From contig CALBMZ010000096.1 in NCBI GenBank assembly GCA_937896225.1, positions 1 through 33,823 of the forward strand: a DNA stretch of 33,823 nucleotides, read 5' to 3'. Position 1 is the stretch's first letter. Each line of letters begins with the position of its first letter. Shown here in pieces: positions 20,339 through 22,904 of this stretch. A program made the position numbers and the translations under genes. This DNA is from an uncultured Alcaligenaceae bacterium. Its GTDB lineage: Bacteria; Pseudomonadota; Gammaproteobacteria; Burkholderiales; Burkholderiaceae_B. The notes beneath the pieces were generated by a model. It was not told the DNA's origin and ran no database searches. It saw only the letters and a list, made by a program, of their open reading frames with translations.

Positions 20339-20602
20339 TTAACCAGATATGGCTGAGTTGTCGCCCGAAAAAGGCTTGAGCAAGTCAGCCTCCAGCATGC
20401 GAACCTGCTGTTCGGCTTGCGACAACTGTTCTTGACATATTTTAGACAAGGCAACCCCTTGTTCATAAGCGAGAAGGGAAGCTTCAAGTGACAAGTCGCC
20501 TGATTCCATCTTGGCAACCAACGCTTCAAGAGCGGCCAAAGCGGACTCAAAATCTTTTGGCTGTTCAAGCGTTTGATCAAGCTGGGCAGGTTTAACAGGC
20601 AC
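20339..20602 (-). CDS. xseB: exodeoxyribonuclease VII small subunit
   Basis: Small subunit of ExoVII, which degrades single-stranded DNA; it packs as helical hairpins along XseA. The 87 residues form the typical coiled helices: DFESALAALEALVAKMESGD, then LSLEASLLAYEQGVALSKIC. GTG at 20602 is chosen because AAAGGAA lies eight bases before it (20611-20617 on the forward strand). The ATG at 20644 would add 14 residues and has no ribosome site. First gene of xseB-ispA-dxs; xseA is not in the window. Confidence 0.93.
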   Translation of the reverse strand: MPVKPAQLDQTLEQPKDFESALAALEALVAKMESGDLSLEASLLAYEQGVALSKICQEQLSQAEQQVRMLEADLLKPFSGDNSAISG

Positions 20603-20678
20603 TGTAAGGTTTCCTTTAAATACAAATTTATTTGCAACTTGCATATGCTAATCAACCGTATTGTAAAGGAACACTGAA

Positions 20679-20696
20679 CCCCAATATCTGCTGGGG
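20679..20696. promoter_or_regulatory. small hairpin in the xseB/Rieske divergent region
   Basis: CCCCA pairs with TGGGG across an 8-base loop. It lies immediately before the candidate -10 box of the Rieske gene, where it could be a regulator site; it is upstream of the likely transcript start, so an RNA role is unlikely for the plus strand. Confidence 0.3.
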
Positions 20697-20702
20697 TACA
20701 AT
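20697..20702 (+). promoter_or_regulatory. candidate -10 element for the Rieske oxygenase gene
   Basis: TACAAT matches TATAAT in five of six bases. The -35 region 17 bases upstream (CTGAAC, 20674-20679) is poor, so an activator may be needed. Transcription would begin near 20709, just before two hairpins. Confidence 0.35.
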
Positions 20703-20715
20703 AATTTGGAAATAG

Positions 20716-20734
20716 ATCGGAGAGTCCGATTTTT
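20716..20734 (+). terminator. leader terminator-like hairpin 1
   Basis: ATCGGA and TCCGAT form a 6-bp stem (8 bp with one G-T and one A-T pair) over a 3-base loop, followed by TTTTT, interrupted by C after 20734. On the plus strand this is a short intrinsic-terminator shape inside the leader of the Rieske gene. Confidence 0.5.
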
Positions 20735-20740
20735 CTTCGC

Positions 20741-20771
20741 GCCAGCTAGATTTTTTGCTGGCTATTTTTTT
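20741..20771 (+). terminator. leader terminator-like hairpin 2
   Basis: GCCAGC and GCTGGC form a 6-bp GC-rich stem over a 10-base T-rich loop, followed by TA and seven T residues (20765-20771). It ends 16 bases before the Rieske ATG. Because the only gene upstream is divergent, this would act on the Rieske transcript itself. Confidence 0.6.
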
Positions 20772-20787
20772 CTTTGCGGGGGGAATC

Positions 20788-21939
20788 ATGTCTGATGTGG
20801 GTCAGAACAAACATCTAGAGCCAGCCAACTCTCAACCAAATCTTGCCAACTACCTTGACGAGAAGCAACTTGCTGTTGAACGCGATTTTATTTTCAACCA
20901 AGCAAGTTTGTACATTGGCCACGAAAAAGGCGTCCCTCAACTAGGCGACTGGCGTGCACTTTCCCAAGAAAATATGGGACGTGTGATGGTGCGCACCCCC
21001 TCTGGCTTAGAATTGGTTTCAAATATCTGTCGGCATCGCCAAGGCTTAATGTTGGGTAATCAAGCAGGCTGGGGCAACCGTACCGCCTCGATCACAGGCA
21101 ATTTATCTGAAACGGGTGGGAATATTGTCTGCCCTTTGCATCGTTGGACATACAACCCAAAAGGCGAATTGCTGGGCGCGCCCCACTTTCCACAAAATCC
21201 CTGCTTAAATCTTGAGCGTTTTAACTTGCAAAATTGCCATGGCCTGCATTTTGAGGGGCCCCGCGACCCGAACCTAGATATTGGTAAGTTATTTAAACGA
21301 CCCGAATTTGACTTTTCAAATTATGTATTTGATCGGGCCGAAGTTCACCCCTGCCATTACAACTGGAAGACTTTCATTGAGGTGTATTTAGAAGACTATC
21401 ATGTCGAGCCCTTTCACCCGGGATTAGGAAGCTTTGTAAGCTGTGACGATCTCACTTGGGAATTTGACAAACAATTTAGTCTCCAACGTGTCGGGGTGCA
21501 CCGAGCCTTGTCGCAACCTGGCTCCGAAGCCTATCGTATTTGGCACGATAAATTACTGTCATTTCGTCAGGGCCAAGCCCCTAATTTTGGGGCTATCTGG
21601 GTCACTTACTTTCCAACCCATATGATTGAGCTCTACCCTCACACGTTGGTTTTATCTACTCTCTACCCCGTTTCAGCCCAAGAAACCCTCAATGTAGTCG
21701 AGTTTTATTACCCCGAAGAAATCGCTTCCTTTGAACGTGAGTTCGTTGAGGCACAACAAGCGGCCTATATGGAAACTGCAGTGGAAGACGATGAAATAGC
21801 GGAACGCATGGATGCAGGAAGAAAAATCTTGCACGCTCGAGGTCAAAATGAGGTGGGGCCCTACCAGTCACCTATGGAAGACGGTATGCAGCATTTTCAT
21901 GAATGGTATGCCCGTATGATGCGGGAACAAAAAGACTAA
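20788..21939 (+). CDS. Rieske non-heme iron oxygenase, alpha-subunit type
   Basis: Oxygenase of the aromatic-ring-hydroxylating dioxygenase alpha-subunit superfamily. The Rieske [2Fe-2S] ligands are Cys81/His83 (CRHRQG) and Cys115/His118 (CPLHRW), with 31 residues between the pairs, longer than usual. The catalytic domain has NWKTFIEVYLEDYHVEPFH with Asp203, His205 and His210 as likely iron-site residues. Length 383 residues. ATG at 20788 follows GGGGGGAATC; an upstream TTG at 20755 lies in a hairpin and was rejected. No beta subunit, ferredoxin or reductase is nearby. It is divergent from xseB-ispA-dxs, a linkage that recurs in Burkholderiales. The substrate is unknown. Confidence 0.9.
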   Translation: MSDVGQNKHLEPANSQPNLANYLDEKQLAVERDFIFNQASLYIGHEKGVPQLGDWRALSQENMGRVMVRTPSGLELVSNICRHRQGLMLGNQAGWGNRTASITGNLSETGGNIVCPLHRWTYNPKGELLGAPHFPQNPCLNLERFNLQNCHGLHFEGPRDPNLDIGKLFKRPEFDFSNYVFDRAEVHPCHYNWKTFIEVYLEDYHVEPFHPGLGSFVSCDDLTWEFDKQFSLQRVGVHRALSQPGSEAYRIWHDKLLSFRQGQAPNFGAIWVTYFPTHMIELYPHTLVLSTLYPVSAQETLNVVEFYYPEEIASFEREFVEAQQAAYMETAVEDDEIAERMDAGRKILHARGQNEVGPYQSPMEDGMQHFHEWYARMMREQKD

Positions 21940-22031: not shown

Positions 22032-22904
22032 ATGAAACGTATTGTTCTGTTCCTTGCCACCAATCTCGCGGTAATCGTGGTGTTAGGTATTGTTCTAAAT
22101 TTACTCGGCGCTGACCGCTTTTTAACGGCACAGGGTTTAAATATTGAAATGCTGTTGGTTTTTTCAACCGTCATTGGTTTTGGCGGAGCCATTATTTCTC
22201 TCTTAATTAGTAAACGCATGGCCAAATGGTCTACTAAGGCGCGCATCATTGATCCCCAGGCGCCAGCCACATCAGAAGAACGATGGCTCGTTGAAACCGT
22301 TCACCAGTTAGCTGACCGGGCACAGATTGGTCAGCCAGAGGTTGCCATTTACGATGGTGCACCCAATGCTTTTGCAACCGGTGCATTTAAAAATAATGCC
22401 CTTGTGGCGGTTTCAACAGGCCTATTACAAAGCATGACGCGCGAAGAAGTCACGGCTGTGTTGGGTCACGAAGTTGCCCATGTCGCAAACGGTGACATGA
22501 TTACTTTGACACTCATACAAGGTGTAGTGAACACCTTTGTTGTATTTTTTGCCAGACTCGTTGGCTACTTTGTTGACCGCGTCATTCTGAAAAATGAGCG
22601 TGGCGTCGGCATGGGTTATTTTGTTGCCGTGATTGTTTCAGAAATTATTTTTGGTATCTTGGCTAGTATTATTGTTGCTTGGTTTTCACGCCAGCGTGAA
22701 TACAGGGCAGACGAGGGTTCTGCACGACTGCTTCAATCACGTGAACCTATGATTAAAGCCTTGGCACGTTTAGGGGGCTTAACACCGGGCGATTTACCTA
22801 AAAGCTTTGAAGCATCAGGTATTAGCGGTGGCAAAGGCATTGCGGCATTATTCTCAACTCACCCACCGATTGAACAACGCATTGCAGCTTTGAAAAATCT
22901 TTAA
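22032..22904 (+). CDS. htpX: membrane zinc metalloprotease HtpX
   Basis: M48 protease of the inner membrane that degrades misfolded membrane proteins together with FtsH. Two N-terminal helices (about residues 5-25 and 38-60), the zinc motif HEVAH with His146, Glu147 and His150, two more hydrophobic segments (about 158-178 and 190-215), and the third-ligand region [10 protein letters not shown]. Length 290 residues, typical of Proteobacterial HtpX. AGGAAGCG precedes the ATG at 22032. In enterics it is controlled by CpxR and heat shock; I see no clear sigma-32 site in the 92 bases upstream. Confidence 0.96.

Follow-up and report, generated by a model that had tools for sequence, protein, structure and literature searches.

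A structured mRNA leader before a Rieske oxygenase-like gene in the Alcaligenaceae

The Rieske gene and the layout of its leader

The window, by which the whole analysed stretch of 33,823 nucleotides is meant, carries on its plus strand a gene for a protein resembling Rieske oxygenase alpha subunits (20788-21939; open reading frame and profile comparison), which is preceded by the leader considered here. The protein scores below the cut-off of every curated NCBIfam model; the best of these, that of glycine betaine monooxygenase, gives 50.8 bits where 670 are required. In the PDB the best relative is a carnitine monooxygenase (E 8e-9). The product is an orphan enzyme that only distantly matches known Rieske oxygenase alpha subunits. 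On the minus strand xseB (20339-20644) diverges from the Rieske gene; ATTGTA at 20660-20665, which reads TACAAT on the minus strand, is a possible divergent -10 box of xseB, and by eye ATTGTACGAGA recurs near the equivalent of this position in many relatives. Downstream, htpX (22032-22904) starts 92 nt behind the Rieske gene on the same strand.

The elements of the leader all lie on the plus strand. They begin with a -10 box, TACAAT (20697-20702), recognised in the sequence and present, unchanged or as close variants, in relatives, whose search pattern demanded a -10-like hexamer; a mechanical scan gave no promoter of the sigma-70 type at TACAAT. Judged from this box, transcription would start near 20708-20710, a few nucleotides before hairpin 1 (H1, 20715-20731), the arms of which, AUCGGA and UCCGAU (20716-20721 and 20725-20730), form seven base pairs if the outer G-U is counted (-6.5 kcal/mol). 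A run of five T follows at 20730-20734, its last three letters being part of the 5' strand of helix P1. This strand, UUUCUUCGC (20732-20740), is the putative anti-Shine-Dalgarno, and nothing else between the hairpins is as well conserved. Hairpin 2 (H2, 20741-20762; arms GCCAGC and GCTGGC at 20741-20746 and 20757-20762; -9.9 kcal/mol) has a highly variable loop and is predicted to stack directly on P1, and behind it a U-rich 3' internal loop (20763-20775) contains, after TA, a run of seven T (20765-20771). The 3' strand of P1, GCGGGGGGA (20776-20784), is the Shine-Dalgarno (SD) region, as indicated by the sequence, the consensus fold and the minimum free energy (MFE) folds, and GGGGGG precedes the start codon ATG at 20788. 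As a separate observation, the promoter spacer holds an inverted repeat CCCC..GGGG (within 20679-20696), which is common to the nearest relative (L002/L083); runs resembling it were seen by eye in only some other relatives.

The original prediction had read the two hairpins with their T runs as terminators in tandem, the run of seven T belonging to the second, which would act on the gene's own transcript. Checked against the sequence, the -10 box, both stems, both T runs and the divergent xseB lie where it had placed them, and the leader 5' of H1 is as short as it had said; absent from it was the 9-bp complementarity of 20732-20740 with 20776-20784 in the predicted fold. A mechanical scan of 6 kb listed seven terminator-like sites, compared with 8.3 +/- 3.0 in shuffled sequence, and within the leader only H2 was among them. 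As the scan shows no excess of such sites, which argues against termination here, the window sequence alone is unconvincing; it is the conservation in relatives that raises the hairpins above chance.

Distribution and covariation among relatives

Relatives of the Rieske protein were drawn from 80 named loci and nine genomes of the window's genus. By eye, many loci of the Alcaligenaceae share one order of elements, namely -10 box, H1, T run, CUUCGC, H2, GCGGRGGGAA and ATG. A covariance model of the leader, built from 33 sequences, gave 142 matches in 140 of the 268 genomes of the family and in 28 of its 43 genera. Positions were cross-checked for the 102 matches from genomes with a listed protein row, the other 40 lying outside this check: 94 end on the Rieske start codon, including those of all nine genomes of the window's genus, eight lie 67-120 nt before it, and none of the 102 lies elsewhere. 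The Rieske gene likewise adjoins the leader match in each of the 33 longer loci (L094-L126). The window's own genome has one match, and no convincing copy was found at its other genes, the second match reaching 13.4 bits (E 9). Among 399 sampled genomes of the order eight had a match, seven of them in the family. The protein itself occurs in most genomes of the family (219 of 268) and of an order sample (139 of 160). The gene thus has a wide distribution in the order, and the leader is a feature of the family. It is a structured mRNA leader of about 80 nt, specific to one bacterial family, which is the Alcaligenaceae by its named members.

Several weak matches were inspected by eye. The eighth match in the order, outside the family (29.5 bits, L127/L236), seems to be coding DNA; the match in genome G182 (27.1 bits, L209), one of the 40 outside the position check, seems not to stand before the Rieske gene and looks false; and the second match in G062 (26.6 bits, L210) seems not to precede it either. 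Genome G078 has two matches (28.2 and 26.6 bits), both just before the Rieske gene. With such weak matches discounted, slightly fewer than 140 family genomes have the leader at the model threshold, a count that omits long-looped leaders missed by the model, such as L224 and L226 in Achromobacter-like genomes with no match.

In a pattern screen of 203 loci 154 matched and 49 did not; the matches reduce to 114 distinct leaders, and with three from the alignment A1 a set of 117 was obtained. The comparison shows, upstream of the same Rieske gene in relatives, two predicted hairpins flanking the nearly invariant UUUCUUCGC. This block contains most of the invariant alignment columns upstream of the SD, an invariance that is overstated because the leader pattern fixes much of it. 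The H2 loop is greatly enlarged in Achromobacter (L010, L012, L013, L022, L025, L026, L032, L224, L225), where H2 plus tail takes up to 263 nt, and a further insert lies between H2 and the ribosome site in the Achromobacter copies L012, L225 and L231.

Covariation was analysed on the sequence-only MAFFT alignment A1 and on alignment A2 (98 matches from 100 sources, 95 distinct rows), whose fit to the structure biases it in favour of that structure. Two-sided changes are seen in seven of nine H2 pairs, both in A1 and in the 95 distinct rows of A2; for H1, two-sided changes in at least one row affect three of six pairs on A2 and one of six on A1. H2 thus covaries strongly and H1 weakly, and for P1 (one of nine pairs on A2, none of nine on A1) covariation is hardly a test, since the helix is nearly invariant. 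The structure as a whole has 98 two-sided cells on A2, against 28.8 +/- 4.1 in shuffled alignments, and none of 500 shuffles came as high; it beats all 500 on every measure and also exceeds versions slid along the alignment. On A1 the corresponding figures are 26 and 8.7. The stems on which the original prediction was built are therefore conserved in relatives, and the covariation it had proposed to look for was found in H2, with less in H1 and hardly any in P1.

Predicted H1 loops range from 3 to 7 nt in relatives, by eye other H1 stem sequences occur in L234 and L067-L069, and the stretch bearing H2 varies from a few tens of nucleotides to over two hundred. By these sequence criteria both elements behave like RNA hairpins, not like DNA operators or coding sequence: a leader peptide is disfavoured because no single reading frame survives the range of 3 to 7 nt in the H1 loop, and a DNA operator because the spacer between the arms of the palindrome differs among relatives.

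T runs and the predicted helix over the ribosome site

Classical transcription attenuators consist of leader hairpins followed by T runs, a likeness which the present leader shares. Transcription attenuation, in which H1 and/or H2 would cut the majority of transcripts short unless a signal or protein permitted read-through, was weighed with the T runs of the 117 distinct leaders, the end of H2 being located by pattern. In the 9 nt that follow H2, the maximum T run amounts to at least 5 in 66 leaders, the window's included, which speaks for attenuation, to 4 in four and to at most 3 in 47, among which are Pigmentiphaga, Alcaligenes and the Pusillimonas group; as a principle common to the family, tandem attenuation is not upheld by these counts. 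Behind H1 most leaders (75 of 117) have a run of five T, some one of 3-4, and before CUUCGC a T run of 3 to 8 is found in 115 of 117, but it doubles as a strand of P1 and persists in L076, where H1 is absent. In the modelled fold the first T run largely forms one strand of the SD-covering helix P1, and the second lies in the internal loop between P1 and H2. Reckoned from the -10 box, a stop at H1 would moreover yield an RNA of only about 25 nt.

The competing antiterminator pairing proposed in the original prediction was looked for in the 83 short leaders, i.e. those of the 117 that are under 125 nt. With the SD forced open, CUUCGC was partnerless in 59 of the 83 and had mixed partners in the other 24, so that no conserved competing helix and, CUUCGC having no conserved partner, no built-in two-state switch was found in this set. 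The leader thus differs from classical attenuators in that mutually exclusive helices were not found, in that its second T run is not conserved and in that its H1 loop lengths are unfit for the frame of a leader peptide. What attenuation can further claim is an H2-like hairpin with T5-6 that by eye survives in L189, L221, L222 and L223, where H1 and/or the anti-SD are lost or altered; as it outlasts the rest, its T run may serve alone in some clades, and H2 may terminate part of the transcripts in clades with at least five T, the genus of the window among them. As a general account of the leader, attenuation is considered unlikely. Of the original interpretation, a conserved leader acting in cis on its own gene stands, and tandem terminators as the common principle do not.

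The nine letters of UUUCUUCGC are complementary to GCGGRGGGA in the SD region, and the predicted helix P1 runs unbroken into H2, the sequence 3' of H2 being left as a 3' internal loop. A conserved helix covering the SD region is present in the RNAalifold consensus fold and in the MFE folds of 75 of the 83 short leaders, in which at least four letters of CUUCGC pair with that region. All nine block letters do so in 65 of 83 leaders, whereas controls reach this in 88 of 996 cases when the block is permuted and in 4 of 996 when it is random; as the rows are related, near-identical in the block and picked by pattern, the 65 of 83 is close to one observation. On A2, 97.2% of the P1 cells are paired. 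Three U-G wobbles of the helix are retained almost throughout (90 of 95, 87 of 93 and 94 of 95 rows), as though selection acted on a weak helix or on the sequence as such. UUUCUUCGC is also kept in L076, the leader lacking H1. Other results speak against P1. GCGGGGGG persists in relatives lacking CUUCGC; in the untrimmed set no more than 90 of 117 leaders pair the SD chiefly to the block, with some bases directly downstream of the -10 box competing for it; and in 111 of 500 shuffles of the window the SD is no less paired, with an MFE z of only -1.57.

No clear support for the SD helix came from compensatory changes, strand swaps or opening energy when set against strong-SD controls. With 13-nt strands, own anti-SD/SD pairs had no binding advantage over swapped ones, 4721 of 5000 permutations equalling or surpassing them, and with 10-nt cores the advantage was slight (160 of 20000 permutations); lengths of U runs and purine runs showed no positive correlation (rho -0.27, n 54). 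Co-evolution of the two strands was thus not detected by swaps or run lengths. Relatives with altered blocks (CUUCAC, CUUCUC and CGUCGC classes) can pair partly or in another register, which is suggestive only. Opening the SD costs 7.9 kcal/mol in 22 leaders, compared with 7.3 in 267 control starts (Mann-Whitney p 0.04), which were called mechanically and are noisy, and with 8.4 in the 69 strong-SD controls (p 0.51 against the leaders); an excess of closure over other strong-SD genes was therefore not detected. The window's own cost of 5.8 kcal/mol is equalled or exceeded by 166 of the 267 control starts.

These costs, ordinary for the genomes concerned, and the position of H1 at the inferred 5' end would suit an ordinary 5' UTR, in which the hairpins stabilise the mRNA and regulation plays no part, but an internal block of 9 nt conserved across 28 genera goes beyond what stability seems to need, and of the explanations weighed this one is held to be the least probable.

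In RNA thermometers of the FourU and ROSE types a U-rich strand pairs with the Shine-Dalgarno region, and a U-rich strand with conserved wobbles opposite the SD is likewise seen in the Alcaligenaceae leader, where the U-A and U-G pairs of P1 might melt on warming as in a FourU element. The predicted helix nevertheless stays mostly closed up to 50 C, the unpaired fraction of the window's SD being 0.11 at 37 C, 0.14 at 42 C and 0.21 at 50 C, a prediction of a weak type, and the leader differs from the known thermometers in having no Rfam match at the gathering score, nor is a thermometer family among the weaker matches. A thermometer is judged highly improbable.

Regulation in trans would have a putative protein, perhaps the Rieske product, or a small RNA recognise UUUCUUCGC or H1. 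Consistent with it, no exchange of C and U occurs in the block among the 117 leaders, though pairing with G would tolerate some and the pattern had fixed most of the letters, and each genome comes close to a single leader target. Yet the complement of UUUUCUUCGCGCC has nine exact matches in the nine genomes of the genus, all of them the leader itself, and no candidate protein was identified; such a factor is regarded as very unlikely, if slightly less so than a thermometer.

Proposed mechanism, known motifs and other leaders

As a conserved competing helix was not found and the second T run is not conserved, a leader working on translation is preferred, with attenuation as the main rival. We infer, with about even confidence, that the leader acts by covering the SD rather than as a tandem attenuator. 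H1 would fold first and cap the 5' end of the mRNA, probably protecting it from decay, and H2 would fold second; once GCGGRGGGA emerges, it would zip with UUUCUUCGC into P1, continuous with H2, and thereby cover the SD. Between H2 and P1, the U-rich internal loop might offer the ribosome a landing (standby) site. Translation would be set by how often P1 opens, be it spontaneously, driven by the ribosome or through a putative factor reading UUUCUUCGC; in clades where five or more T follow H2, a degree of transcription termination may contribute as well. It is quite unlikely, if somewhat less so than recognition in trans as such, that the leader constitutes a new class of cis-regulatory RNA for one core Rieske oxygenase of the Burkholderiales, with UUUCUUCGC recognised by a putative sensor that opens or locks the ribosome site. 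If the leader does control translation, it offers a handle on when the orphan Rieske enzyme is needed and hence on its role.

At the gathering score Rfam gave no match for the window, for 20 relatives' loci or for 18 further loci, which bears out the earlier statement that no known riboswitch class matches the leader; permissive scans of two leaders yielded three matches, all far below gathering scores. In the portions of the articles covered, no account of the leader was found (PMC11722255, PMC8386462, PMC2864571, PMC11109978, PMC8632094), and within that literature a conserved mRNA leader in a family including Bordetella, Achromobacter and Alcaligenes appears without prior description. According to Weinberg et al. 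(2010, PMC2864571), the msiK motif is the leader of one gene and consists of a long hairpin with an 11-nt bulge, with a ribosome binding site predicted in its basal 3' strand; the protein encoded downstream is suspected of exerting feedback. The logic of a ribosome site in the basal 3' strand of a bulged hairpin is the same here. The msiK motif is nevertheless a different RNA from a different phylum, belonging to msiK genes of Actinobacteria, and the Alcaligenaceae leader has in addition a hairpin at its 5' end and, on the 3' side, a U-rich internal loop. The same article lists the Burkholderiales-1 motif, a candidate RNA of the same order with no Rfam accession in its table; the leader may be identical with this motif or may already be described in the supplement.

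Other leaders stand before the same Rieske gene. In three genera (g3, g39 and g25, with Advenella and Taylorella among the named loci) a different hairpin with an invariant UGACCCUUGG loop is found, the stem of which covaries, with two-sided changes in six of nine pairs over seven distinct rows. A model of this leader (R2) gave 18 strong matches in 18 genomes (E below 1e-11), beyond which a long tail of weak matches begins at 28.4 bits; in all 18 strong loci the leader precedes an open frame which by eye encodes the same Rieske protein. The loci concerned are L237-L254 together with L050, L060, L063, L211-L213, L219 and L220, and those scanned had no Rfam match. This leader also has a U/A-rich linker and a CGGGGG ribosome site, and CCCUU could pair with GGGGG; on the unlikely reading of a new class of cis-regulatory RNA, this second, unrelated leader in sister genera would look as if control of the Rieske gene at the RNA level had been reinvented.

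By eye, further seemingly conserved leaders occur in L135-L137 and L144, from other families of the order, and in L132-L134 and L077-L080; they comprise a hairpin AUCGA..UCGAU with GGUUGGRUUGKU behind it, and also CCUCCCUGUGGGGAGUCUUUAGGUCAGGUCA, in this or a variant form, ahead of ATG.
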